DNA from: Bacteroidota bacterium
GTDB lineage: Bacteria > Bacteroidota > Ignavibacteria > Ignavibacteriales > Ignavibacteriaceae
NCBI GenBank assembly: GCA_021777835.1
Contig: JAJYDC010000023.1
Span: forward strand, 1 to 37,193
Length of the DNA stretch: 37,193 nt
Reading direction: 5' to 3'
Shown: positions 2,122 to 28,214 of the stretch, in pieces
How positions within the stretch are numbered: position 1 is the stretch's first letter
Layout of the letters: every line of letters begins with the position of its first letter
Translations under genes and position numbers: made by a program
The notes under the pieces: model-generated
What the model saw: only the letters and a program-made list of their open reading frames with translations
Told to the model about the DNA's origin: nothing
The model's database searches: none

Positions 2122-2274
2122 TAGTGACGAGTGACGAGTGACAAGTGACGAGCAAGTGCAAGTAGGGAGTAGGGAGGAGTGAGTAAGGAGTAGGGAGTAG
2201 GGAGTAAGGAGTAGGGAGAAGAAAGAAGCTAGAAGAAAGAATAAGAAGGAATGGGGATTATGAGAAGGGGAGGG
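2122..2274 (+). repeat. Heptamer repeat tract (GTGACRA)n-(GGAGTAR)n, solo arm of a dispersed element
   Basis: The tract opens with TAGTGACGAGTGACGAGTGA and continues through GTGACGAGCAAGTGCAAGTA into tandem 7-base units of the type GGAGTAG/GGAGTAA, then decays into purine-rich sequence (2220-2274). It matches the terminal arm of elements A and B in order of parts, but the core and the second arm are absent. Translations of this tract in any frame are low-complexity and are not genes. Confidence 0.8.
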
Positions 2275-3390: not shown

Positions 3391-4626
3391 TTGACCGGAT
3401 ATAATTTGCAAAGTACAGAAATCAAAACTCCATCTATTTTCGATTTAATTAAAACAGGACTTTACCTCGGGGCGACATCGTACGGCGGACCGGCGATGAT
3501 TGGTCAGATGAAGAAGACGATTGTCAATGACAAAAAGTGGATTAACGAATCGCAGTTCCTGGATGCAATGAGTTTCGCACAGATACTTCCGGGCGCTACA
3601 GGCGTTTTGTTGATGGGATATATAGGCTATGTTCTTAAGAACGCATTCGGAGCAATTATAATATCTCTTTTCTTTGTATTACCATCGGCGATTGCTATAG
3701 GTCTACTCTCATTTCTTTATTTTAATTATAGGCAGCAGACTTTTGTGAAATCACTTTTTGCGGGGTTAGGAGCAATGATTGTATCTCTTTTGGTTGATGC
3801 AATTTTAACACTCGGCAAATCTGTTTTCCCGAAGTTGTCGATAAGGTATTTAAAGGGCTATATAATTTCCGCGGTGGTATTTACTCTCGCTTTCTGGTTT
3901 AAGTTTGACAGCGTTGCATTGGTTTTAATATCAGCCGGACTTGGCTATATACTTTTCTTTTCTGTTAAAGACTTTAAGAATATTTCAATACCGCAATTAT
4001 CAAGTGAGAATAATCATTCACTATTTAGTGAGAGTTTATCTAAGAAGAAATATGACTATATATTTTTAGGTACTTTAACTTTAGTTCTAATTATTCTATT
4101 AATTTTTGAGCCTCAGATCAGAATTATATTCCTAACATTTTTCAAGATAGGTACATTCGCATTCGGCGGAGGTTATAATTCCATTCCGCTGCTGCAGCAT
4201 GAAACAGTGAATATTCATAAGTGGGTATCGATGAGTCAATTTAGAGATGGATTGGCGATGGGGCAGATTACACCGGGTCAGGTATTGATTACGGCGACTT
4301 TTATAGGGTATAAGGTGTTTGGAATTCCGGGATCGGTCGCAGCTACCATAGGAATATTTCTGCCTTCAGTTATTGCAGTAATTATACTGAGTAAATTTCA
4401 TCAGAAGATAATACAGATGCCAATTACTCATTCTTTAATAAGGGGAGTGCTTGCAGGGTTCATAGGGCTGCTTTTGTCGGTTACTATCAGTTTTGGAATT
4501 CACTCATTAGTTAGCTGGCAAACCTGGGGGATATTTATAATCACACTTGTATTGCTGGCTTATTACAAAGTCGATCCGCTCTGGATTATAATTGGGACAA
4601 TTATTATTTCGCTAGTGGTTATATAG
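3391..4626 (+). CDS. chrA: Chromate transporter (CHR family), long two-domain form
   Basis: The 411-residue product has the internal duplication of long-chain CHR proteins. The first half carries YGGPAMIGQMKK (about residues 30-41) and FAQILPGATGVLLMGYIGY, and the second half FGGGYNSIPLLQHE and GLAMGQITPGQVLITATFIG, both hallmarks of the family, with about ten hydrophobic segments. The family exports chromate in characterised members, driven by the membrane gradient; many homologues have unknown substrates. No ATG fits the N-terminus: TTG 3391 is taken here, and TTG 3406, which has GGA seven bases upstream, would be five residues shorter. The C-terminus ends LVVI with stop TAG 4624-4626, and that TAG is the first triplet of repeat element A, so the original C-terminus may have been altered by the insertion. 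The next gene, converging from the right, is an H+-ATPase. Confidence 0.88.
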   Translation: MTGYNLQSTEIKTPSIFDLIKTGLYLGATSYGGPAMIGQMKKTIVNDKKWINESQFLDAMSFAQILPGATGVLLMGYIGYVLKNAFGAIIISLFFVLPSAIAIGLLSFLYFNYRQQTFVKSLFAGLGAMIVSLLVDAILTLGKSVFPKLSIRYLKGYIISAVVFTLAFWFKFDSVALVLISAGLGYILFFSVKDFKNISIPQLSSENNHSLFSESLSKKKYDYIFLGTLTLVLIILLIFEPQIRIIFLTFFKIGTFAFGGGYNSIPLLQHETVNIHKWVSMSQFRDGLAMGQITPGQVLITATFIGYKVFGIPGSVAATIGIFLPSVIAVIILSKFHQKIIQMPITHSLIRGVLAGFIGLLLSVTISFGIHSLVSWQTWGIFIITLVLLAYYKVDPLWIIIGTIIISLVVI

Positions 4627-5001
4627 TGACGAGTGACGAGTGACGAGCAGGAGAGAAGTAAGGAGTGGGGAGTGACCTGTCTGCGACAGGTGGGAGAGGG
4701 GGAATAGTGACGAGTGACGAGTGACAAGTGACAAGTGACAAGCGGGAAATGGTGACATGTGACTTGTAGCCAAATCAAAATATTATTTCTGACAATGTAT
4801 ATTTCATCCCTAATGGGACTGTATTTTCTATTTAGTATACTTTACTATAAATATTTCGTCTCTAAAGTAACTGTAAATCTTTCAATGCCAAATTGAAGAT
4901 TAATTCAGATACTCTTTGTCATTCCTTACTGTCACTTGCCTGCCGCAGGCAGGTTACTCGTTACTTGTTACTTGTCACTCGTTACTCTTTACTCGTCACT
5001 A
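4624..5001 (-). repeat. Dispersed element A, MITE-like, 378 bp
   Basis: Both ends read TAGTGACGAGT inward, with GTGAC/GTAAC heptamers behind them, so the ends are inverted terminal repeats. Outside each end stands TA (4622-4623 and 5002-5003), a possible target duplication. Read on the minus strand, the core (about 4745-4955) matches element B over about 210 bases at roughly three in four or better by eye. It contains the palindrome around GCCTGCCGCAGGCAGG (about 4938-4953) and two direct motifs at 4799-4820 and 4851-4872. A second palindrome, ACCTGTC-TGC-GACAGGT, lies at 4675-4691 in the left arm. No coding frame fits; the element fills the gap between convergent genes. Confidence 0.8.
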
Positions 5002-5004
5002 TAC

Positions 5005-7425
5005 TTACAATCCGAATAACTTGAATGCATAATATTTCGGTACGTCTATAGCAAGAGTAAATACTGCCGAAAAAATAAGCGCGGTCATTACTTGCGTTAC
5101 TGTTAATGCCGGTATTATTAAACCATAAATTCCTAAAAGGACAAAGACTATGAGGCTGATCGATGTAGAAGCAATAAGTGCTTTGCCGGGCATTGAATAC
5201 CAAAAGAAATTTCTTTCTCTTACAATTAATACTCTAAATTGACTCGTGAATACAAGCATAAGCATAATAAACGCCTGAAGTGGTTTCTGACTTAATCCAA
5301 AATAGCTTGATCCGATTATAATTCCGATTACTCCTTCTACTACAAGCAATGCGCCAATTATAAGTGATGCAAATGTAATATTCTTTACATCCCAGTTATT
5401 CGGAGCTTCGGTATGTTTAACGTTATCGGTAGCTAGTGACATTGTAACAAAGTCATTTGCAAAAACCAGTAAGGACATTCCTAACAGCGACAGTACCATT
5501 TCATCTTTCATAAAGAAGCCTATGGTAAGCAATCCGACTACCTGTATTACCTTAGTCACCTTATTTATAACCCAGGTAAGCATTCTCTGATATGTTTCTC
5601 GGCTTCGTTTAATAGCTTCAACTATTACACTTACGCCCGGTTCGGTAAGAACTACGCTTGCAGAAGCCTTTGCAACATCTGTAGCGTTACTGACGGCTAT
5701 TCCCATTTCAGCTTGTTTAAGTGCAGGGGCATCATTTACTCCGTCACCTGTCATACCGACCATAAAGCCTTGTGATTGGAGCAGCTTAACTATTTTATAT
5801 TTATCTTCAGGATATATTTCAGCAAATCCGTCAGACTCACTTACAATTTTTGCCTGTTCCGGTTCTGTCAATCCTTCAAGATCTTTAAGTCTAATTATAT
5901 TATTACCGATACCTACCTGGTGAGCAATCTCCTTTGCAATAGACATATTATCGCCCGTGAGCATTAATGCTTTTACACCTAGTTTCCTAGCTTCTTCGAT
6001 CATTGTTTTTGAATCACTACGCGGAGGATCGGCGAGCGGAAGTAATCCTACAAGTTCTAAGTTATCAAAATTATCACCGACTGATTTTGCGACTGCAATA
6101 GTTCTATAACCTTTTTTGGATAAGCTATCGATATTAGAATCTACAAGATCATGAGCTGTTTTATCCATTCCCGAGCACATTGGTATTACAACCTGTGCCG
6201 CACCTTTAATAACTTTAAATTGTTTTCCATCGGATTCTATAATTGCTTCGGTTCTTCTTATAGCAGGATTGAATGGAGTATAACTAACCTGTTTTTGTGA
6301 ATCATGGTTTGCATTAATTCTTTTGGCATAATCCATAATGGCAACATCTATTAAATCCATACCCTCGGCGCGAGAGGCTAAATTACCATAATTGGCGACA
6401 TCCAATTTAGAATAATTCGAGAAGGGGATGCTATCGGTTACAGATAATTTATTTTGAGTAATAGTTCCTGTTTTATCAAGGCAAAGAATACTAATTGAAG
6501 CCGCATCTTCAATTGAATCAAGTCGTGCTACAATTATTCCTTCTTCGGCGAGTTTCATACCGGTAGCTGCTTGAACTATAGTAAGTACAGCAGGAAGGGC
6601 AACGGGTACTGCGCCCATAAGAAAGATTACTGCAAATGTTATTATTAATAGCACGCTTACATTTATAAAGACAGCATATATTGCGACTATTATTGATGCT
6701 ACGATTCCCAGGTACATCATGTACTTAACAATTTTAAGCATGATTTCTTCCTGGTGGGATTTTGGTTTGGCTATTTTGACTAACTCAGCCGTTTTGCCGA
6801 AATAAGTATTAGCCCCTGTGTTTACAACGATACATTTTGCTTCGCCTTGCTTTACGACCGAACCCGAATAGGTAACATCAAGCGCCTGAATTTCAACGGG
6901 AAGGGATTCACCGGTTAAGGCTGATTCATCAATTGAAACTTCACCGCTAATTATTTTTGCATCAGCAGGGATAATATCTCCGAGCTTCACAATAATAACA
7001 TCTCCGGGTACGATATCGCTAGATTCGACCAAAGACCAAGCGCCGTCACGTAAGACTTTCGCTTTTATAGCGAGCCGGTGCCTGAGTAATTCAACAGCCT
7101 TCTGAGAACCATGAGAATGCATAAAGCCGATAATTGCGTTTACGGTTAAAAGGAAGAAGATTATTATAGCTTCAATATCATGTTTTAGAAAAAATGAGAG
7201 GACCATTGCAAGTTCAAGAAGCCAGGGCATTGGACCCCAGAAGCGACTGATAAATTGAATAAATGGATTTTTCTTTTTAGTCTCAATAGCATTTCGCCCA
7301 AAGGTGGCAAGTCTTTTTTGGACCTCTGCATTATTTAGTCCTGATTCTGTTGCATCCAAGTATTTTAGCGTTTCATCTAAAGATGATTTCTTAAAATCTG
7401 AAGTAGGTAGTAGTTTATATTCCAT
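5005..7425 (-). CDS. P-type H+-transporting ATPase, PMA (P3A) type
   Basis: The 806-residue product has every landmark of a P-type pump: actuator motif ALTGESLPVE, phosphorylation site CLDKTGTITQNK with the phosphorylated Asp at residue 317, MLTGDN, and GMTGDGVNDAPALKQAEMGI. The N-terminus (LDATESGLNNAEVQKRLATF, then NPFIQFISRFWGPMPWLLE) and M4 segment PVALPAVLTI are those of plasma-membrane proton pumps. Asp658 in LLVFANDFVTMS sits where the proton-binding Asp of plant AHA2 (Asp684) lies. In these pumps ATP hydrolysis expels H+ across the inner membrane. There is no long C-terminal autoinhibitory tail as in plants; the protein ends at YYAFKLFGL. Start ATG 7425 has GGAAGAAA upstream. It is monocistronic and divergent from the outer-membrane protein at 7605. 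Confidence 0.9.
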   Translation of the reverse strand: MEYKLLPTSDFKKSSLDETLKYLDATESGLNNAEVQKRLATFGRNAIETKKKNPFIQFISRFWGPMPWLLELAMVLSFFLKHDIEAIIIFFLLTVNAIIGFMHSHGSQKAVELLRHRLAIKAKVLRDGAWSLVESSDIVPGDVIIVKLGDIIPADAKIISGEVSIDESALTGESLPVEIQALDVTYSGSVVKQGEAKCIVVNTGANTYFGKTAELVKIAKPKSHQEEIMLKIVKYMMYLGIVASIIVAIYAVFINVSVLLIITFAVIFLMGAVPVALPAVLTIVQAATGMKLAEEGIIVARLDSIEDAASISILCLDKTGTITQNKLSVTDSIPFSNYSKLDVANYGNLASRAEGMDLIDVAIMDYAKRINANHDSQKQVSYTPFNPAIRRTEAIIESDGKQFKVIKGAAQVVIPMCSGMDKTAHDLVDSNIDSLSKKGYRTIAVAKSVGDNFDNLELVGLLPLADPPRSDSKTMIEEARKLGVKALMLTGDNMSIAKEIAHQVGIGNNIIRLKDLEGLTEPEQAKIVSESDGFAEIYPEDKYKIVKLLQSQGFMVGMTGDGVNDAPALKQAEMGIAVSNATDVAKASASVVLTEPGVSVIVEAIKRSRETYQRMLTWVINKVTKVIQVVGLLTIGFFMKDEMVLSLLGMSLLVFANDFVTMSLATDNVKHTEAPNNWDVKNITFASLIIGALLVVEGVIGIIIGSSYFGLSQKPLQAFIMLMLVFTSQFRVLIVRERNFFWYSMPGKALIASTSISLIVFVLLGIYGLIIPALTVTQVMTALIFSAVFTLAIDVPKYYAFKLFGL

Positions 7426-7604
7426 TTTGATTTTTCTTCCTTAAAAGATAGTTCCTAAGTTCAATATTAAATAAATTTAAAATGTAGACATCAAATATAA
7501 AGCATTTTTAAATACGAGCTTATGGTAAAAACGTGAGATTAGTCAAAGGTAAATTCAAAATGTATAACCATTAGACTTGATAAAAGAATGATGTAAATTT
7601 AGAT

Positions 7605-10600
7605 TTGAAAATCACAAAACTAATTCATCTGTTGAAATTTAAGCTATTAATCATTCTCGCATTCTTTTCTTTAAATGCTGTACAAACATTATTTGCCCAG
7701 CAAAAGTACTATAATTCAATAGTTACTGATTCAATCAGAATAAATTTTGGAAATGAATATTATCTTTCTAATCCTGTAATAGTACCTTTTTCAGAGATAA
7801 TAAAGCTAAGGGGAAAAATACTATCTCATAAAGATTATATATTTTCTTATCCAACTTCATCGTTTACGCTTTCCGATAGTCTTCATTATTCTTTATTTGA
7901 TACATTAATTGTAACCTATGAAACTATAAACCTTGCACTTCAAAAGGATTACAAGAATAGAATCTTGACATATAGATTTGATAAAGCATTAGGCGACACC
8001 GTAGGGGTTGCGAATAATGAAAGTACACCATTTACTGCTGAGACTATTTTTGGAAGCGGTATGCAAAAGAGCGGCACAATAGTCAGGGGATTTACAGTAG
8101 GAACGAATCAGGATTTGTCACTCAACAGCGGACTACGACTTCAGTTATCGGGAAGATTATCTAAGGAAATTGAAATTGTTGCTGCGCTTACAGACCAAAA
8201 TACGCCGATTCAACCGGAAGGGAATACAGCAACACTTGACCAGCTTGATAATGTTTTTATACAAATAAAGCATCCAAATGCCACGGCGACTTTTGGAGAT
8301 TATACACTTCAAAAGAAAATAGGTACATTCGGACCCATAGATAGAAAGCTTCAGGGATTACTAGGGGAATTTAATTACGGTGAGCAAAAGGCATACGTTG
8401 CAATTGCGAATGCTAAAGGTAAATTTACAACAAATAGTTTTACAGGTTCGGACGGTGTGCAAGGTCCATATATATTAACGGGAGCAAACAACGAAAGGAA
8501 TATTATAATTATTGCCGGCTCCGAAAAAGTATATATCGATGGAATTGAAATGAAGAGAGGAGAAAGAAACGATTACATAATCGATTATGCGAATGCTCAG
8601 ATTACTTTTACTCCTAATAGGCTTATTACCTCGGCAAGCAGAATATCAATTGACTTTGAATACTCAGATCAACAATACCAGAGGACATTCTTTGGCGCGG
8701 GAGTTGAGTCGGAATTATTTAAAAATAAGTTAGGTATTAAATTTCAATATCTTCGTGAAGGCGACAACCAGGATGCACCGATTAATACTTTATTATCAGA
8801 CTCGGATAAAGCACTTATTGCTGCAGCGGGGAATGATCCTTCGAAGGCGACAAAATCGGGAATTACAATAGCGCAGCCTGATTCAGTAGGAGTTGTTCAC
8901 GGAACTTATTCAAGAGTCGATACAGTAATAAACGGCTCACCCTATACTTATTATTTATACAATCCCGGAGGTGCAAACTCAATTTATAATGCAGTCTTCA
9001 GTTATGTAGGTGCGGGGAAAGGCGATTATAATAATATGAGCATCGGTGATTATAATTTTGTGGGAGTTAAACAGGGAAGTTATGCGCCTGTAATTTTCCT
9101 TCCGCTGCCTGAATTAAAGCAGAATGCTAATTTTGCAATTGATTATAAGCCCGAGAAAGGGGTGAGTCTTAACGTAGAATATGCCGGCAGTCTTTATAAC
9201 CGCAATAGATTTTCTTCGGCAGGAAATAATAATTTTGGTTACGCTACTAATATTTTATTCAATGTTGATCCCAGAAAAATTGAGATAGGAAAAGTTTCAT
9301 TAGGGAAAATTGGAATATCGTATCACGACAGGTTTATACAGTCTAAGTACTCCTCACCCGACAGAATAAATCCCGTTGAATTTAACAGGGACTATAATAT
9401 TGATTCGACTACAACATCTCAGAGTCAGCAGTTACGTGAATTTAATTTGGCACTAATTCCGGTGAGTCAATTGAGTATAAATTCGTCTTATGGTTTGCTG
9501 ACGCAGGGAAGCAGCTTTAAGTCAACACGATACAATAATACAATTAAATTCGGCGACAATAAGAATTACGGATTTCAGTATAACCTTGACTATGTAGCAT
9601 CAGAGAATTTAAGTTTTAAGAGCTATTGGCTAAGGCAGCAAGGGCAGGCATTTTATAATATTTGGAAGCTCAGACCGGGAGTAGGATTCCTATCCGAGAA
9701 CAAAAATGATAAACAAGGCGGAGTTGATTCATTGTTATCAACGAGCTTAAAATATTATGAAATAGATCCATTTCTTGAACTGGTAGATCTTTATGGGCTT
9801 CACCTTATTGCGAAGTATTCCCTGCGAGATGATTATGCGCCATTATCGGGTATAATGACGAACCAGGCGACATCTACCGGTCAGTCACTTGAGTTGAATT
9901 ATAGCTGGAGCGGAAAGTTCAATTCGACATTAAATTTTACTGTTAATAATAAAAATTATTCGGAGGCATTTAAGAAAATAGGATACCTTAACAGTCAGAC
10001 AATTTTAGTAAGGTCACAGTCAAGATTTAATTTCTGGAATCCGCTATCGGGTGATTTTTATTATGAAGTATCCACTCAAAAATCAGCTAAGCTTCAAAAG
10101 GTATTTGTGCAAGTTCCGGCAGGTACAGGAAATTATATTTACCTTGGGGACTTAAATCATAACGGTATTGCGGATGAGAATGAGTTTCAGCCATCACTAT
10201 ATGACGGCAATTATGTTCTTGTAACCGTGCCTACAACACAGTTATACCCCGTAATAGATCTTAAGACAAGTTCACGCTGGAAGGTAATTTACGGTAATAT
10301 TTTTGATAGAGGGTCTGTACTTCAAAGCATACTAAAACCCTTTTCTTCGGAAACATCGTGGAGGGTAGAGGAAAATAGTACCGAGCCTGATTACAAGAAA
10401 ATATATTTGCTTCAATTTTCAAACTTTCAAAAAGAAGCAACGACCATTCAAGGATCAAATTTTATTCAGCAGGATTTATATGTTTTTGAGAATGACAGGG
10501 ATCTTTCATTCAGGCTAAGATATGCACAAACAAAAAGCTTAAACCAGTATAGCGGGGGATCCGAAAGGATATACAACAGGGAGCAAAGCATAAGAATAAA

Positions 10601-11096
10601 TTTCAAAATGGTGAAGGAAATTAGTAACCAAACAGACATAACAAACCAGACAAATAATATCGGCGCTCCAATAATATCAAACCTGCAGCAGCAAATCTCT
10701 GGTAATAATATTAGCTCTGATTTTTCATATCGTCCTGAAAAAAATATTGAGGTAGGATTTATAATTAAAGTCGGCAAGAGTCAGGATAATTTTCCTAAAA
10801 CTCCGACGATTATTAATCTTAATTCTCAGACATTGCGTTTTAATTTATCATTTGCGAATACCGGGAGATTAAAGATTGAGTTTAAGCGTGATGAATTGCT
10901 GGCTAATACAACGACTAATATTATGCCTTTCGAATTGACATCCGGAAATGTAATCGGTAAGAATTATTATTGGCAGTTGAATTTTGATTACAGGCTTGCT
11001 TCTAATCTTCAGTCGACGATAAGTTATAACGGAAGAGCACTAGGCAGCGAAAAAACCGTACACACTGCCAGAGCTGAAGTAAGAGCATATTTCTAA
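7605..11096 (+). CDS. Large outer-membrane beta-barrel protein, SprA-reminiscent, unknown function
   Basis: TTG 7605 begins a 1163-residue product with a signal peptide ending about LFAQQ (residue 33). Most of the remainder alternates short polar and aromatic strands, and the chain ends RAEVRAYF, a terminal Phe being typical of barrel proteins inserted by BAM. The stretch around residues 155-245 (GTIVRGFTVGTNQDLSLNSG, LSGRLSKEIEIVAALTDQNT, ATFGDYTLQKKIGTFGPIDR) reminds me of the repeated modules in gliding/type 9 secretion protein SprA, but it is about half the size of SprA or less. Residues 849-860 (DLNHNGIADENE) fit a calcium-binding EF-hand-type loop, with D849, N851, N853, D857 and E860 in the ligand positions. 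The next gene starts 24 bases downstream. Function is not established; a surface porin or a translocon component are both possible. Confidence 0.7.
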   Translation: MKITKLIHLLKFKLLIILAFFSLNAVQTLFAQQKYYNSIVTDSIRINFGNEYYLSNPVIVPFSEIIKLRGKILSHKDYIFSYPTSSFTLSDSLHYSLFDTLIVTYETINLALQKDYKNRILTYRFDKALGDTVGVANNESTPFTAETIFGSGMQKSGTIVRGFTVGTNQDLSLNSGLRLQLSGRLSKEIEIVAALTDQNTPIQPEGNTATLDQLDNVFIQIKHPNATATFGDYTLQKKIGTFGPIDRKLQGLLGEFNYGEQKAYVAIANAKGKFTTNSFTGSDGVQGPYILTGANNERNIIIIAGSEKVYIDGIEMKRGERNDYIIDYANAQITFTPNRLITSASRISIDFEYSDQQYQRTFFGAGVESELFKNKLGIKFQYLREGDNQDAPINTLLSDSDKALIAAAGNDPSKATKSGITIAQPDSVGVVHGTYSRVDTVINGSPYTYYLYNPGGANSIYNAVFSYVGAGKGDYNNMSIGDYNFVGVKQGSYAPVIFLPLPELKQNANFAIDYKPEKGVSLNVEYAGSLYNRNRFSSAGNNNFGYATNILFNVDPRKIEIGKVSLGKIGISYHDRFIQSKYSSPDRINPVEFNRDYNIDSTTTSQSQQLREFNLALIPVSQLSINSSYGLLTQGSSFKSTRYNNTIKFGDNKNYGFQYNLDYVASENLSFKSYWLRQQGQAFYNIWKLRPGVGFLSENKNDKQGGVDSLLSTSLKYYEIDPFLELVDLYGLHLIAKYSLRDDYAPLSGIMTNQATSTGQSLELNYSWSGKFNSTLNFTVNNKNYSEAFKKIGYLNSQTILVRSQSRFNFWNPLSGDFYYEVSTQKSAKLQKVFVQVPAGTGNYIYLGDLNHNGIADENEFQPSLYDGNYVLVTVPTTQLYPVIDLKTSSRWKVIYGNIFDRGSVLQSILKPFSSETSWRVEENSTEPDYKKIYLLQFSNFQKEATTIQGSNFIQQDLYVFENDRDLSFRLRYAQTKSLNQYSGGSERIYNREQSIRINFKMVKEISNQTDITNQTNNIGAPIISNLQQQISGNNISSDFSYRPEKNIEVGFIIKVGKSQDNFPKTPTIINLNSQTLRFNLSFANTGRLKIEFKRDELLANTTTNIMPFELTSGNVIGKNYYWQLNFDYRLASNLQSTISYNGRALGSEKTVHTARAEVRAYF

Positions 11097-11120
11097 ATTT
11101 ATTACTAATAAGGTGAAGTA

Positions 11121-11597
11121 ATGAAAATAATTTCTAAAATAGTAGAAATTCATATATTTAGGGAAAAAGGAAATAAGCTGCAATTTCTACTATTGAAACG
11201 GGGCGCAAATGAAATATATCCCGGTTTGTGGCAGATGGTATCGGGAAAAATTAGAAAGAAGGAGAAAGCATATCTTACTGCTATAAGAGAGATGAAGGAA
11301 GAAACAAATTTAACTCCCGTTAAGTTGTGGGTTGCGCCAAATATTAATTCATTTTATGATCCGTTAAGCGACAGTGTTACAATCATCCCGGTATTTGCTG
11401 CGCTGGTGGATTCAAAAAACGTAGTTAAAATAAGTAATGAGCATAGTGAATTCCGTTGGGTGTTTATAAGTGAAGCAAAGAAAAAATTAGCGTGGGAAGG
11501 GCAAAGGAAATCCATAGATATAATTTCGCAATATTATTTGAAGCAGAAGAATTTTCTTGACTTCGTCCAGATGGAAAAAGTGACAAGTGACAAGTGA
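11121..11597 (+). CDS. Nudix hydrolase (NudB-like)
   Basis: The 158-residue product carries the Nudix box at residues 42-64: G42, E48, then R56-E57-x-x-E60-E61, with N63 where Gly is usual. The Glu residues coordinate Mg2+ for hydrolysis of nucleoside diphosphate-linked substrates. The flanking LLLKRGANEIYPGLWQMVSG and the late FRWVFISEAKKKLAWEGQRK resemble NudB-type enzymes acting on dATP or dihydroneopterin triphosphate, but the substrate cannot be fixed from sequence. AAGGTGAAGTA precedes the ATG. It lies 24 bases after the barrel-protein gene and is probably cotranscribed. The last residues, KVTSDK and the TGA, are encoded by GTGACAA heptamers of element B, so the original C-terminus has been replaced or trimmed by the repeat. 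Confidence 0.88.
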   Translation: MKIISKIVEIHIFREKGNKLQFLLLKRGANEIYPGLWQMVSGKIRKKEKAYLTAIREMKEETNLTPVKLWVAPNINSFYDPLSDSVTIIPVFAALVDSKNVVKISNEHSEFRWVFISEAKKKLAWEGQRKSIDIISQYYLKQKNFLDFVQMEKVTSDK

Positions 11598-11951
11598 CAA
11601 GTGACGAGCAGCTGCAAGTAAGGAGTAGGGAGTAGGGAGTAGGGAGTAGGGAGAAGGAAGCAAACGGAAGTAGTGACGAGTGACCTGCCTACCGCAGGCA
11701 GGCAGATAACAGTAATGAATATCAAAGAGTACCTGAATTAATCTTCATTTTAGCGAAGAAAGATTTACAGTTCCGTTAGGGATGAAATATTTTTAGCAAA
11801 GTATACCAAATAAAAAAAAGTCCCGTTAGGGACGAAATATGTTTTAGCTAAAATAATATTTTGTGTTGGCTACAATTAACATGTCACTATTTCCTACTCC
11901 TTACTCCTTACTTGCAGCTGCTCGTCACTCGTTACTAGTCACTCGTCACTA
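11579..11951 (+). repeat. Dispersed element B, MITE-like, about 373 bp
   Basis: Left arm: GTGACAA/GTGACGA heptamers, then GCAGCTGCAAGTAAGGAGTA, then GGGAGTA heptamers. The right arm is the same in reverse complement: 11601-11627 and 11902-11928 form a perfect 27-base inverted repeat. Between them lies the core (about 11678-11888), homologous to element A in opposite orientation, with the palindrome around CCTGCCTACCGCAGGCAGG, direct motifs at 11769-11790 and 11819-11840, and a shared block about AATAATATTTTG then TTGGCTACAA. The right end is CTCGTCACTA (11942-11951). The left border is less sharp because it merges into the Nudix coding end. No coding frame is credible inside it. Confidence 0.8.
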
Positions 11952-12062: not shown

Positions 12063-15000
12063 ATGAGGCGCCTTAGATTTCATCTGTTGATAAAAGTATT
12101 CCTAATTACTATTCTTTTGTGCATTCCTCAAATAATCTATTCTCAAAAAGACTCGTCTAAAAAATTTGATATTACTTCCGGATTAAAATTTAGAAATATA
12201 GGTCCTGCTATAGGAGGCGGCAGAGTGAGCTCTGTAGTTGGTATTCCGGGACAGCCTAATATTTATTATATAGGAGCGGCAGGCGGCGGTGTATTTAAGA
12301 CTGTCGACGGAGGCTTTTCATGGAAACCAATATTTGAAAAAGAGCCTGTGTCTTCTATCGGAGCAATTGCCTTAGCACCTTCGAATCCTAATTTAGTGTG
12401 GGTAGGCACGGGAGAACCAAATATTCGAAATGATGTGCTTAATGGAAAAGGAGTTTATTTTTCACCCGATGCCGGCACAACTTGGAAGTTTATGGGATTG
12501 AAGGATGCTGGACAAATTTCACAAATAGTAATTGATCCTACTAATCCTGAAATAGTTTTTGTTGCTGCACTTGGTCATCCATGGGCGCCAAATAAAGAAC
12601 GCGGATTGTATAAAACAATTAACGGCGGTAAAACCTGGAAGAAAGTACTTTTTATAAATGACACAACAGGTATTTCTGATGTAGTAATGGAACCCGGGAA
12701 TCCGGAAGTTATGCTAGCTGCAGCCTGGCAGGTTGTTCGATATCCCTGGGCATTAGATGACGGAGGAGCCGGGAGCGGTATTTATCAGTCAAAAGACGGC
12801 GGCGAAACATGGAAGAAAATCTCAGAAGGAATTCCAAAAGGTATATTGGGAAGAATTTCATTTGCGACCAGCTTGTCTAAACCGGAACATGTTTATGCAT
12901 TAATTGAATCTCATAAAGGTGTGCTTTGGGATTCGCATGACTTCGGAGATCACTGGCAGATGGTTAGTAATAATCATGAATTAAATGTAAGACCATTTTA
13001 TTTCTCGCGAATGGAAGTTGCGCCTAACGATGATGAGAAAATTTATTTTCTATCTTTTTTAATTACTGTTTCTAATAACGGCGGTAAGACGGTTACTTCA
13101 ATAAACAAAGGAATACATGTTGATCATCATGCTATTTGGATCGATCCTAAGAATCCTGAAAGAATAATTGAAGGAAATGACGGAGGTGTTTATTTATCTA
13201 TGAACGCCGGTGAATCTTGGCACTTTCTTGACAATATCCCAATTGAACAATTTTATCAAGTAGCTTTAGACTCTTCGTATGCATACAACCTTGGCGGGGG
13301 ACTTCAGGATAATAATGCCTGGTACGGTCCGTCAAGAAATTTAAATGGAGGAAGTGTTGATGGGTCAGGCTGGTATATTGTAGCGGGAGGCGACGGTGAG
13401 TATGTTGTGCCAGCTCCGAGTGATCCTTCAATTATTTATGCAGAATCTCAAGACGGATTTGTGCAAAGGTTAAATACAAAAACGGGAATTACTCATCAAA
13501 TCCGGCCTTACTTTTTTGATGTATCCGATAAAAAACCGGATCAATTAAAATACAGATTTAATTGGACTACGCCTATTGCAGTGTCTTCATCCGATGCAAA
13601 TGAAATATTTCTTGGCGCTAATGTATTATTTAAGTCAAACGACGGCGGAATAAATTGGAGTGCTATAAGTCCTGATTTAACACGTAATGATAAGTCAAAG
13701 GAAATTATCAGCGGAGGACCGATAAACCATGATATAAGCGGAGCTGAGACTTTCGGAACTATATTATCAATTGGACTTTCGGATTTAAAGCCAAATGTTA
13801 TTTGGATTGGAACTGACGATGGTCAGGTTCAAGTTACGACGAACGGAGGGAAGAGCTGGACAAATGTATCAAAGAATATTCCGAATCTTCCTAGTTGGGG
13901 AAGGGTATATCAAGTTGGAGTATCTCCATTCGATGCCGGTACGTGTTATATTGCTGTTGATAGACATATGATGAATGATGATAAGCCATATCTCTATAAA
14001 ACTGATAACTATGGGAAAAGCTGGACTTCAATTTCAAGAGGATTGCCGGAAGATTCATATGCAATTGTTGTGAGAGAAGATCCTGATAAAAAAGGATTCT
14101 TAGTTGTAGGTACTGAGACAGGACTATTTTATTCTAACAATAACGGTGAAAAATGGGAACAATTAAAATCGAATTTTCCGACTGCACCTGTATTTGATTT
14201 AAAGTTTGCAAAGAAGAATCATGACCTTGTAGTTGCAACACACGGAAGGGGAATCTTTATTTGCGATAATATATCTCCACTTGAAGAAATACCTGAGAAG
14301 AGCAATACCAATTTCAAAATGTTCAGTGTACTGCCGTCATACCTTTATAATATTTGGTACAAAGGAGGATTGAATAAATCCGGCAAATACACAGCTCCAA
14401 ATCCGCCTGCTGGAGCGGTTATTGATTACTTTATTAAAGATTCAATAAAGGCAACAAAAGCAGAAAAACTTAAACACGAGTCACCGGTTAAAATTGTTAT
14501 AACTGATTCCAAAGGTGCCGTAGTTGATACGCTTTATGGAACAGAGCATAAGGGTATAAACCGGATGGAATGGAATTTAAATTATTCAAGCGGGCAGATG
14601 CTATCTACCGATACTTTGCAAGGGAAACATCCGAACTATCATGCAGGTCCACAAGCCATTCCCGGTACTTATAAAATAACGGTTGACTTTAACGGAGAAA
14701 AGCAAACTCGGAATTTCGAACTCAGACCTGACCCGAGAATTCCATTTAATTATAATGCAGCAGAAGAGCAACTTAACGCATCAAAGGAAATTCAAGGTGA
14801 AATATCGGCGATGAATATAATGTTGAACCGGATTGACAATATTCACGGGCAAATAGTCAATTTGAAGAATGCATTAAAAAATAATGCTTCATTAGGCAAT
14901 GACGGAGGCGAATACAAACCTGTTCTAAAAAGTGCGAATAACATAGATTCAATGCTTACTTTAATTAAAGACACTTTAATGGATACAAAAGCACAGCCCG

Positions 15001-15263
15001 GGGTAGGCGAAGATGATATACATTATACAACAAAACTAAGAAATTGGATTATAGGAATGAAGTACTGGTTGTCCAGCGACTATGATTCAGCGCCTAATGA
15101 TATGCTGAAAAGTGAAATGATTAATTTAAGGACGGAACTTGCAGGTTTTATTGATAAATTTAATTACATAAGTAAGACTGAAATTTTATCCTTCAACAAA
15201 CTTGCCAGTGAAAATAATGTCCCCGTTTTGATTGCGGGACCGCCTATAAAAATTCCAAACTAA
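12063..15263 (+). CDS. Secreted BNR/Asp-box (VPS10/sortilin-like) beta-propeller protein
   Basis: The 1066-residue product has a signal peptide (MRRLRFHLLIKVFLITILLC through about IIYSQ, residue 27). It then has many Asp-box repeats: KTVDGGFSWKP, SPDAGTTWKF, KTINGGKTWKK, QSKDGGETWKK, SNDGGINWSA, TTNGGKSWTN, KTDNYGKSWTS and others, over about residues 40-740. Such proteins form one or two large propellers and are commonly called sialidase-like, VPS10 or YVTN/BNR proteins; no sialidase active-site set could be confirmed. After residue 760 follows a FlgD/Ig-like strand-rich part (VKIVITDSKGAVVDTLYG, RMEWNLNY) and a helical C-terminus. AAAGGATTAAAG before ATG 12063 supports the start. Likely periplasmic or surface-located, with an unknown ligand or substrate. 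The gene ends just before a strong hairpin. Confidence 0.8.
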   Translation: MRRLRFHLLIKVFLITILLCIPQIIYSQKDSSKKFDITSGLKFRNIGPAIGGGRVSSVVGIPGQPNIYYIGAAGGGVFKTVDGGFSWKPIFEKEPVSSIGAIALAPSNPNLVWVGTGEPNIRNDVLNGKGVYFSPDAGTTWKFMGLKDAGQISQIVIDPTNPEIVFVAALGHPWAPNKERGLYKTINGGKTWKKVLFINDTTGISDVVMEPGNPEVMLAAAWQVVRYPWALDDGGAGSGIYQSKDGGETWKKISEGIPKGILGRISFATSLSKPEHVYALIESHKGVLWDSHDFGDHWQMVSNNHELNVRPFYFSRMEVAPNDDEKIYFLSFLITVSNNGGKTVTSINKGIHVDHHAIWIDPKNPERIIEGNDGGVYLSMNAGESWHFLDNIPIEQFYQVALDSSYAYNLGGGLQDNNAWYGPSRNLNGGSVDGSGWYIVAGGDGEYVVPAPSDPSIIYAESQDGFVQRLNTKTGITHQIRPYFFDVSDKKPDQLKYRFNWTTPIAVSSSDANEIFLGANVLFKSNDGGINWSAISPDLTRNDKSKEIISGGPINHDISGAETFGTILSIGLSDLKPNVIWIGTDDGQVQVTTNGGKSWTNVSKNIPNLPSWGRVYQVGVSPFDAGTCYIAVDRHMMNDDKPYLYKTDNYGKSWTSISRGLPEDSYAIVVREDPDKKGFLVVGTETGLFYSNNNGEKWEQLKSNFPTAPVFDLKFAKKNHDLVVATHGRGIFICDNISPLEEIPEKSNTNFKMFSVLPSYLYNIWYKGGLNKSGKYTAPNPPAGAVIDYFIKDSIKATKAEKLKHESPVKIVITDSKGAVVDTLYGTEHKGINRMEWNLNYSSGQMLSTDTLQGKHPNYHAGPQAIPGTYKITVDFNGEKQTRNFELRPDPRIPFNYNAAEEQLNASKEIQGEISAMNIMLNRIDNIHGQIVNLKNALKNNASLGNDGGEYKPVLKSANNIDSMLTLIKDTLMDTKAQPGVGEDDIHYTTKLRNWIIGMKYWLSSDYDSAPNDMLKSEMINLRTELAGFIDKFNYISKTEILSFNKLASENNVPVLIAGPPIKIPN

Positions 15264-25611: not shown

Positions 25612-26187
25612 TATGATGCTCCAGAATGTATTTAAAACTATCATTTTTTTTGCAGGCGAATAATAGCACAGAAAAATAATTAATGCCACAGGGGACAAAT
25701 TATTTTGCATTGTGCGAGCGGGGAGAAGGTAGGAGTAAGGAGTAAGGAGTAGGGAGTAGAGGACAGGGGCTTGGGTAATATTGGGACACTGTATTTGAGA
25801 AACAATTTATAATAATAATTGGAATAATTATTTATTACATTTGGATTATTACACAGGCTCTCAAGCAGGATGGTCTCTCCTTGCAAATGTGTGTAGATTA
25901 TAAAGATTTCTACTAAATAAAGGTGCTTAAATAAATGCTAAATAAATGCTAAATAATTTTCTAATACTGAATTTTTGAAAGTTTTCAAATACTATTTGAG
26001 GTATTTCGCTGATTTTCATAACTACAAAATAATATAGATTGCCGCTGCAAAGCATGTTGTACCTTCTTAAAAGAGCGAAATGTCAAACAAGTAGCACGTT
26101 AAAATATTTTAGCTAATATTTTAATAATTTAAACCTTATTAATGTTTAAATTGTCATATAATTTTAAATGAATCTAAAGGAATATAA
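25612..26187. other. Intergenic region between divergent galM and isochorismatase-like genes
   Basis: This 576-base gap must contain both promoters. It holds the heptamer tract at 25712-25766 and, at about 25927-25958, nearly three tandem copies of an 11-base unit TAAATAAATGC. I see nothing else that can be named. Confidence 0.5.
25712..25766 (+). repeat. Short purine-rich heptamer tract, degenerate arm of the dispersed element
   Basis: GAGCGGGGAGAAGGTAGGAG leads into four GGAGTAR heptamers, then decays. It corresponds to the GGAGTAR section of elements A and B, without GTGACRA units of good quality and without the core. Confidence 0.6.
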
Positions 26188-26891: not shown

Positions 26892-28214
26892 ATGAAGAAG
26901 ATTATTCTATTATTATTTGCTGTCTATTTTACCTCCTTCAAGTTTTATTCTATGTCTTTAATCTCCTCAGATTCATTACTAGAAAAGGCTACCTTGCAAA
27001 ATTGTGTACAGTATGCACTAAGGCATCAGCCGCTTATGAAACAATCACGTTTGAACGAAGAGATTACCGGATATCAAATCAGAAGTAAGTTAGCAGATTG
27101 GTTCCCACAGTTGAATTTCAACTATAATTTGCAGCATAATTATCTACTCCCAACATCTAATTTCCAGGGAAACACTATTAAAGTAGGTCTGAATAATACT
27201 TCCAGCGGACAGTTCTCTTTGACCCAAACAATTTTCAATAGAGACGTTTTACTAGCCGCCAGCACTGCAGGTGAGGTACGAAATCAAGCGAAGCAAATCT
27301 CGGTTAATAATAAAATCAATGTTGTTGTAAATGTAAGTAAAGCTTTTTATGCAGTACTCTTTACACAACAGCAAAATAATTTATTAGATGAAGATATAAT
27401 CCGCCTGAAGCAAAGCTACGAAGACGCATATAACCAATATAAAGGCGGGGTGGTTGATAAGACAGATTATGAGCAGGCAGAAATTGCTCTTAATAATGCA
27501 GAAGCAGAAAAGAAACAAAATGAAGAGTTACTTAAAGCAAATTATGCAAACCTGAAAGATCAAATGGGTTATCCCTCGGACGGCGATCTAAGCCTTTTAT
27601 ATAACATTACTACTATGGAAAACGAGGTTTCGATAGATACTTCTGAAGCACTAAATTATGATAAAAGGATTGAGTATAAACTATTGCAGACTCAATATCA
27701 TTTAGATCAAGCTAATCTTAAATATTATGAGTGGAGTTTTCTCCCGTCATTAAACGCTTTTGCAGAATATAATTTCAATTATCAGAATAATGATTTGCCA
27801 AAACTCTATAATCAAAATTATCCTAATTCATACGTAGGCCTGCAATTGTCTTTCCCGATTTTTCAGGGAGGCAAGAGGATTCAAGAGATAGGGCAGGCAA
27901 AGCTTGAATTAGAACGTTCCGGTTATGATATAGTTTCGTTAAAAAATTCTATGAATGCGCAATATGTTCAATCAATGTCAAATTACAAAAGCAATCTAAA
28001 CAACTATATTATAATGAAGAAAAATCTGGAATTAGCAAAGGACGTCTATAATACTATTGAACTGCAATATAAGTCGGGTGTAAAAACCTATTTAGATGTC
28101 ATTACCGCTGAATCAAATTTAAGAACTACTGAAGTTAATTTAATAAATGCACTGTACCAAACACTAAGCAGTAAGCTGGATGTTCAAAAAGCATTAGGCA
28201 CCATTCAATATTAG
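26892..28214 (+). CDS. TolC-family outer-membrane efflux protein
   Basis: The 440-residue product has an N-terminal signal (MKKIILLLFAVYFTSFKFYS) and two outer-membrane efflux protein repeats of long alpha-helical hairpins, for example LTLQNC-type opening ATLQNCVQYALRHQPLMKQS, DYEQAEIALNNAEAEKKQNEE and the second-repeat VYNTIELQYKSGVKTYLDVI with AESNLRTTEVNLINALYQ. Such proteins form the trimeric exit duct of tripartite pumps. The length is usual. It is the first gene of a three-gene operon with the adaptor 19 bases on. Confidence 0.92.
   Translation: MKKIILLLFAVYFTSFKFYSMSLISSDSLLEKATLQNCVQYALRHQPLMKQSRLNEEITGYQIRSKLADWFPQLNFNYNLQHNYLLPTSNFQGNTIKVGLNNTSSGQFSLTQTIFNRDVLLAASTAGEVRNQAKQISVNNKINVVVNVSKAFYAVLFTQQQNNLLDEDIIRLKQSYEDAYNQYKGGVVDKTDYEQAEIALNNAEAEKKQNEELLKANYANLKDQMGYPSDGDLSLLYNITTMENEVSIDTSEALNYDKRIEYKLLQTQYHLDQANLKYYEWSFLPSLNAFAEYNFNYQNNDLPKLYNQNYPNSYVGLQLSFPIFQGGKRIQEIGQAKLELERSGYDIVSLKNSMNAQYVQSMSNYKSNLNNYIIMKKNLELAKDVYNTIELQYKSGVKTYLDVITAESNLRTTEVNLINALYQTLSSKLDVQKALGTIQY

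Follow-up and report, generated by a model that had tools for sequence, protein, structure and literature searches.

We know of no agreed origin for the heptamer repeats of cyanobacteria, xanthomonads and Beggiatoaceae, of no account of how the intervening sequences (IVS) of 23S rRNA genes move, and of no explanation for the numerous 'four helix bundle proteins'. The short tandemly repeated repetitive (STRR) sequences of cyanobacteria are also heptamer repeats. The present work concerns two related elements, A and B, that lie in a 37,193-nucleotide stretch of DNA (the window; contig JAJYDC010000023.1) from the draft genome of a Bacteroidota bacterium of the family Ignavibacteriaceae (GCA_021777835.1; 95 contigs, 3.64 Mb). 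Taken as a whole, the evidence makes it probable that A and B are gene-less derivatives of mobile elements that carry a gene of the PF05635 family, insert at stop codons and have arrays of seven-base units as their arms.

In the 23S rRNA IVS that hold an S23p/intervening sequence protein (IVP) gene, such as that of Coxiella, a PF05635-family gene lies in an inverted-repeat stem, as it does in the elements described below. Tandem GACAGAT heptamers stand directly upstream of S23p in Coxiella in a number that varies between strains, in one of which the S23p gene has a large deletion (PMC4990558); the variable heptamer number together with the gene deletion fits the picture proposed here. Gene decay, patchy distribution and suspected transposition are further likenesses (PMC4990558). 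In contrast to the IVS, which are found within 23S rRNA genes, the elements studied here occupy intergenic positions at stop codons, and A and B lack a gene.

Heptamer repeats with the unit GGGNATC have been described (PMC4692102), and TAACTGA heptamers occur in Beggiatoaceae, cyanobacteria and Bacteroidetes with no evident mechanism; the Bacteroidetes arrays are lacking from relatives that have the same neighbouring genes (PMC4679880). Such repeats resemble the arrays in A and B in having seven-base units that are mostly intergenic and in some cases overlap stop codons. They differ in that the accounts consulted connect them neither with a gene family nor with inverted arms or target duplications; the roles discussed there are in regulation, slippage and G-quadruplex formation. 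PF05635 proteins resemble Avd of the diversity-generating retroelements (PMC10053308), and 18 IVP genes have been counted in cas loci (PMC3936711). Among the top-ranked literature matches, heptamer repeats were linked to PF05635 genes only in the Coxiella paper (PMC4990558), and no paper joined heptamer arms, the PF05635 family and target duplications.

Anatomy and sites of elements A and B

A and B point in opposite directions and have the same order of parts: a heptamer arm, a CCTGCC..GGCAGG palindrome, GAATTAATCTTCA, GAAAGATTTACAGTT, two direct hairpin motifs, AATAATATTTTG..TTGGCTACAA, and an inverted heptamer arm. An earlier note, made from the letters of the window alone, had described them as two related inverted copies with this order, and all of the parts were present. 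When A (4624-5001) was reverse-complemented and aligned with B (11579-11951), as that note had suggested, blastn gave 78% identity over 264 bp (E 6e-57). The A/B alignments overall had 78-81% identity over 191-264 bp (E 5e-46 to 6e-57), and the core used as query gave 80% (E 5e-49). The local score of A against B was 156, and dinucleotide shuffles (300) reached 24 at most; with arms and palindrome removed, the core still scored 91 against 23 for the shuffles. Since A and B share both the core and the palindrome, one composite must have been copied at least once.

The arms of both elements are arrays of two heptamer kinds, AGTRACR and AGTARGG. The two arms of B score 50 against each other and have a linker, GAGCAGCTGCAAGTAAGG, that is absent from A. 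Each element folds as one long hairpin (-152.3 kcal/mol for A and -163.1 kcal/mol for B; z -10.2 and -14.6, respectively), and none of 100 shuffles was equally stable. No long open reading frame (ORF) was found within A or B, a PF05635 model built from 43 proteins had no match in the window, and an Rfam scan of the window at gathering thresholds returned tRNA only, so that A and B are not inside a 23S rRNA gene. In A, the left arm begins in the stop codon of the preceding gene (TAG, 4624-4626), and the right arm ends at a distance of 4 bp from the stop codon of a convergent gene (5005-5007). In B, the left arm provides the present stop codon of the Nudix gene.

In relatives the same neighbouring genes are found without the elements. 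At least six relatives have the neighbourhood of B, and in all six among the matches listed (G001, G004, G005, G008, G009 and G012) the Nudix gene is followed by the BNR gene with no element B; in G011 and G007 the BNR gene is in a different context. For A a single relative was found, G007, in which the chromate transporter and ATPase genes stand end to end, separated by about 140 bp of other sequence. Its chromate transporter gene ends at the corresponding codon, and the array in the window therefore begins inside the stop codon. To judge from these relatives and from the better-resolved members described below, A and B themselves have presumably been mobile. The earlier note had looked to empty-site orthologues as support for mobility; the absence of the elements (B from the six relatives, A from G007) agrees with it, while a precise empty site was not among the results. 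Two other ideas were rejected. An inversion between A and B is not indicated, as the gene order is the same in G007 (on two contigs, with the junction inside the ATPase gene). A TA target, hinted at by TA at several arm ends, was dropped because B has no TA and the plasmid sites described below show longer duplications.

Small size, inverted ends and the lack of an ORF are features that A and B have in common with miniature inverted-repeat transposable elements (MITEs), and the earlier note had called them MITE-like, mobile and non-autonomous. Two related copies, inverted ends, the absence of a long ORF, dispersed arms and the lack of A and B at the corresponding sites of relatives partly bear out this description. 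As classical MITEs, A and B would derive by deletion from an insertion sequence, the transposase of which recognises the heptamer ends and moves them in trans; two related copies would also be accounted for. However, their ends consist of heptamer arrays in place of a single fixed terminal repeat, the unit varies from one related element to another, and the hairpin pair also occurs without arms. Among the loci read, none showed a transposase with such ends; Y1_Tnp was the only transposase family searched for, and no systematic search was made. We consider a classical MITE to be quite unlikely. It is a PF05635 gene that accompanies the same arms, and the ties of the arms to stop codons and to PF05635 were invisible from the window on which the earlier note was based.

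The loop of each element holds a hairpin pair, GTCCC..GGGAC followed by GAAATAT. The earlier note had named many copies with the same ends as support for mobility; the full core was found only twice in the genome, and the hairpin pair has three further copies, one on contig C11 and two on contig C8. Both copies on C8 are without heptamer arms. Hairpin-related repeats were found in 12 of 59 genomes searched, including the own genome, and in G009 (contigs C145 and C3; L146, L148) the loop hairpin stands in tandem with a period of about 52 bp. Because of the armless copies and the tandem arrangement, the hairpin pair is best seen as a separate repeat sitting in the loop.

Two Y1_Tnp genes that resemble those of the repetitive extragenic palindromic (REP)-associated tyrosine transposases (RAYTs) are present in the own genome (G000:C67:400-1700, L056, and G000:C57 at about 27080-27800, L057), each amid its own hairpin repeats, CACCTAACTGAAGTTAGGTG and AGACTGATAGTCTGTGCTACGGGGG. 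Small hairpin repeats such as those in the A and B loops recall REP sequences and their hairpin-forming doublets (REPINs) with RAYT. REPINs are not known to have heptamer arms, to be anchored at stop codons or to have target duplications. If the hairpin pair itself were moved by a RAYT and the heptamer arrays were merely its preferred landing place, the armless copies, the tandem copies in G009 and the two Y1_Tnp genes would be understandable. On the other hand, the hairpins that flank both Y1_Tnp genes differ from the A and B loop hairpin, on which ground Y1_Tnp was rejected as the mover, and this explanation would account neither for the shared inverted arms nor for the copies that hold a PF05635 gene. 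It is therefore regarded as very improbable.

Inverted heptamer arms around PF05635 genes

The same arms that bound A and B are found next to intact PF05635 genes. In G009 (C60:12133-12561) inverted AGTRACR arrays stand directly before the start and after the stop of such a gene. On contig C11 of the own genome, an intact PF05635 gene is likewise bordered by such arrays; those closest to it, one on each side, run in the same direction, and the inverted partner is located further out. The PF05635 product matched the solved structure 2GSC (E 5e-29), the protein of which is a homopentamer according to PMC4990558. PF05635 genes occurred in all 13 genomes of the genus (82 rows) and in 116 of 148 genomes of the phylum; the 14 control genomes had none.

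To survey the flanks of these genes, 50 of the 82 genus rows were used. A strict period-7 array was present within 600 bp of the PF05635 gene at 12 of the 50 loci, compared with 0 of 235 control tiles (1.5 kb each, 373 kb in all; Fisher p 2.6e-10). The controls were 20 stretches from 9 genomes, hand-picked from large contigs rather than random, and arrays exist elsewhere in these genomes, the window being an example. Other periods were rarer (period 8 in 4 loci, period 6 in 4 and period 9 in 1). By eye, many of the remaining loci had weaker inverted arms whose unit differed from locus to locus. Three loci were too short or contained N and were dropped from the flank test; for the other 47, flank identity at lags of 7, 14, 21 and 28 bp was 0.370, 0.353, 0.346 and 0.319, respectively, as opposed to about 0.29 for 76 control ORFs. 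Inverted pairing of the two flanks scored 19.1, compared with 12.1 for mismatched pairs and 12.4 for the control ORFs, and exceeded the 95th percentile of mismatched pairs at 21 of the 47 loci.

Two further sets gave similar values. The phylum set consisted of 30 loci as returned by the search, which favours high-scoring proteins; inverted pairing was 16.4 against 11.5, lag-7 identity was 0.351, and 14 of the 30 loci were above the 95th percentile and none above the 99th. The plasmid set comprised 14 of 37 records, all cyanobacterial, and included two closely related pairs (L340/L341 and L347/L348); inverted pairing was 19.9 against 11.4, lag-7 identity was 0.449, and 6 of the 14 loci were above the 95th percentile.

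The arms are anchored at stop codons. Lag-7 identity, profiled for the 65 of 95 elements whose upstream ORF is codirectional and with no control profile from other genes, was 0.24 in the stretch 30-21 bp ahead of the upstream stop codon and rose to 0.47-0.49 in the 20 bp that start with its first base. In the 57 of 95 elements used for comparison, the arms of two elements were alike mainly if their proteins were more than about 60% identical, with exceptions; L221/L222, L343/L344 and L347/L349 have proteins at least 70% identical and low arm scores. Since arm likeness follows protein identity, the arms appear to travel with the element but to change fast. Arm units are not all private, as AGTCAGA-like units recur in both phyla. 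At four loci in congeners (L240, L254, L257 and L261), PF05635 genes or remnants stand before what is apparently the same downstream gene; the arm units differ among these loci, and the left and right arms match in the intact ones.

Insertion, gene loss and the proposed route

Plasmids of Nostoc-type cyanobacteria allow occupied and empty sites to be compared directly, and in these plasmids elements with inverted heptamer arms have inserted at stop codons with a short duplication and have lost their gene in place. The occupied site of Trichormus variabilis, compared with an empty Nostoc linckia plasmid (99.0% identical), has the duplication GTAAT, which includes the stop codon TAA. The pNsp_a site of Nostoc ATCC 53789 has the duplication TTCTA, with one base lost just past the right copy. 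The pNsp_c site of the same strain, compared with an empty relative (94%), has a duplication of 3 bp under a strict reading or 5 bp with one mismatch. For Nostoc C057, whose gene-less element was compared with an empty plasmid of Nostoc UHCC 0926, the duplication is 4 bp strictly or 5 bp with one mismatch. Loss of the gene is visible at two sites. The pNsp_c plasmid (97%) agrees with the gene-bearing element of Nostoc edaphicum in its left junction at the TraM site, and its loop there has no gene. In a Nostoc C052 plasmid (92%), the gene is missing from the Trichormus site and the left arm remains. These gene-less and left-arm-only versions look like counterparts of A, B and the solitary array at 2123-2216 in the window. 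PF05635 genes also stand inside plasmid CRISPR operons (L344, L345 and L349), in the orders cas6-IVP-cas4 and cas10-IVP-cmr3; plasmid pAQ6 of PCC 7002 (L358) has the cas10-cmr3 site without the gene, and the comparison suggests insertion. When Nostoc plasmids L356 and L357 were compared, the TraM junction was seen to hold a gene-less, ATTCAAA-armed element, the empty site of which is nearly precise; in other plasmids this junction holds a GGGAACA-armed element, making it a recurrent target.

The plasmid sites also bear on another account, in which the arrays are simple repeats grown by slippage and inverted by template switching, and the A/B core arose by ordinary duplication without any transposition. 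Unit numbers of the arrays vary and the arms hold point variants, the linker common to the two arms of B is private to them, most of the scanned AGTRACR arrays are solitary, and one paper mentions slippage as an origin of heptamers (PMC4679880), all of which are in keeping with this account. However, slippage would not be expected to give plasmid sites that occur both occupied and empty and have duplications at their junctions, nor arms that start at stop codons and are linked to one gene family. We judge the account to be unlikely.

Several observations weigh against the view that A and B are derivatives of PF05635 elements. Of the nine inverted AGTRACR pairs in 36 sequences scanned, eight (A, B and six others) have no PF05635 gene between the arms, and most single AGTRACR arrays in those sequences have no such gene nearby. 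The two arms of A (score 32, the same as A left against B right) are no more alike than the left arms of A and B (42). A is flanked by TATA on both sides, which is itself palindromic, and B has no visible duplication. No precise empty site for A or B was found in the nearest relatives, in which the intergenic DNA is unalignable; genes of these relatives are about 20% diverged, and a target duplication at A and B is unreadable. At two of the six plasmid sites, Picosynechococcus cas10-cmr3 and Nostoc edaphicum TraM, no duplication was readable as the junctions are too diverged. In the surveys, inverted pairing was at or below the 95th percentile at 26 of 47 genus loci, 16 of 30 phylum loci and 8 of 14 plasmid loci, and the own flanks in direct orientation scored 14.4, which is also above mismatched pairs. 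Arm mismatches were 52 G.T and 62 A.C (p 0.40; 41 of 94 elements, arm score cut-off 17); as G.T was not in excess over A.C, there is no sign that pairing matters as RNA, and selection on the stem as RNA was rejected. Finally, contig C11 may be foreign to this genome through transfer or misbinning, given that C11:1-1981 (L052) is 97.3% identical over 1,981 bp to G011 C36:8551-10531 (L142), compared with about 80% for the BNR gene of the two species. The wzi locus was rejected as an empty site of the C11 element, because relatives were too diverged or had other sequence there.

The proposed route that best accommodates these data is as follows. The mobile element would be a loop framed by two arrays of seven-base units in inverted orientation, and the loop of a complete member would hold one PF05635 gene of about 120 codons (annotated as 23S_rRNA_IVP, S23 or 'four helix bundle protein'). 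It would insert at the stop codon of a gene and duplicate up to about 5 bp including the stop codon; because the duplication spans the stop codon, the element would fit tight intergenic spaces and leave the genes unbroken. The gene may later be lost, with the loop taking up other sequence, such as the REP-like hairpin pair in A and B, or decay may leave one arm as a solitary heptamer array. The PF05635 pentamer is predicted to bind its own arms and to help in moving the element, perhaps together with host functions or another enzyme, and copying across the hairpin may keep the two arms alike. Gene-less members would either be moved in trans or be leftovers. Insertion as such was observed in the plasmid elements only, and A and B presumably arose by the same route.

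More tentatively, and with less than even confidence, the elements may form a transposon class in at least two phyla, with fast-changing inverted heptamer arrays as ends, stop-codon insertion with a duplication of about 5 bp and a pentameric four-helix-bundle protein. The 23S IVS would be elements of the same kind at another location, and the heptamer repeats of bacteria would be the living and dead arms. If this link holds, one mobile element would explain the heptamer repeats, the 23S IVS and the 'four helix bundle proteins', and the stop-codon target would explain how it settles inside operons, CRISPR operons included. The protein would then be predicted to bind its own arms, and new insertions would be predicted to carry short duplications at stop codons.

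Other features of the window and of heptamer arrays in the genome

Table 1. Positions of elements A and B, their parts, solitary arrays and neighbouring genes in the window
Feature	Position	Strand	Basis
Element A, inverted heptamer arms around core, no PF05635 gene	4624..5001	-	alignment, fold, scan
A left arm region: AGTGACR units 4625-4645 and 4706-4740, AGTARGG units 4657-4670, CCTGTC..GACAGG palindrome; begins in chromate transporter stop codon	4625..4743	+	
Hairpin pair in A loop; motif copies 4799-4816 and 4851-4868	4799..4868	-	
CCTGCC..GGCAGG palindrome at inner edge of A right arm	4938..4953	.	
A right arm, inverted AGTRACR units, 4 bp from ATPase stop	4952..5001	-	
Element B, inverted heptamer arms around common core, no PF05635 gene	11579..11951	+	
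B left arm: AGTGACA units, linker GAGCAGCTGCAAG, AGTAGGG units; gives Nudix stop codon	11579..11657	+	
CCTGCC..GGCAGG palindrome of B	11684..11702	.	
Hairpin pair in B loop; motif copies 11773-11790 and 11823-11840	11773..11840	+	
B right arm, inverted, linker as in B left arm	11884..11951	-	
Solitary heptamer array, AGTGACG then AGTAGGG units, no inverted partner; possible one-arm remnant	2123..2216	+	
Short solitary AGTARGG array	25731..25763	+	
Chromate transporter gene, end within A left arm	3391..4626	+	
Cation-transporting ATPase gene, convergent, end adjoins A right arm	5005..7425	-	
Nudix gene, end now within B left arm	11121..11597	+	
Sortilin/BNR-repeat gene downstream of B; reference for empty-site comparison	12063..15263	+	

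In the own genome the AGTRACR pattern, with up to two mismatches allowed, had 83 matches in 3.64 Mb, while the reversed control pattern had none. The matches were mostly on contigs C11, C16 (the window) and C30. An exact match was found in 7 of 164 genomes of the order, 4 of which are among the 13 of the genus. On contig C30 (1981-2360; L053) there are four tandem higher-order units of about 100 bp, each made up of an AGTRACR array, a linker, an AGTARGG array and a CTGCCTGCGGCAGG palindrome.

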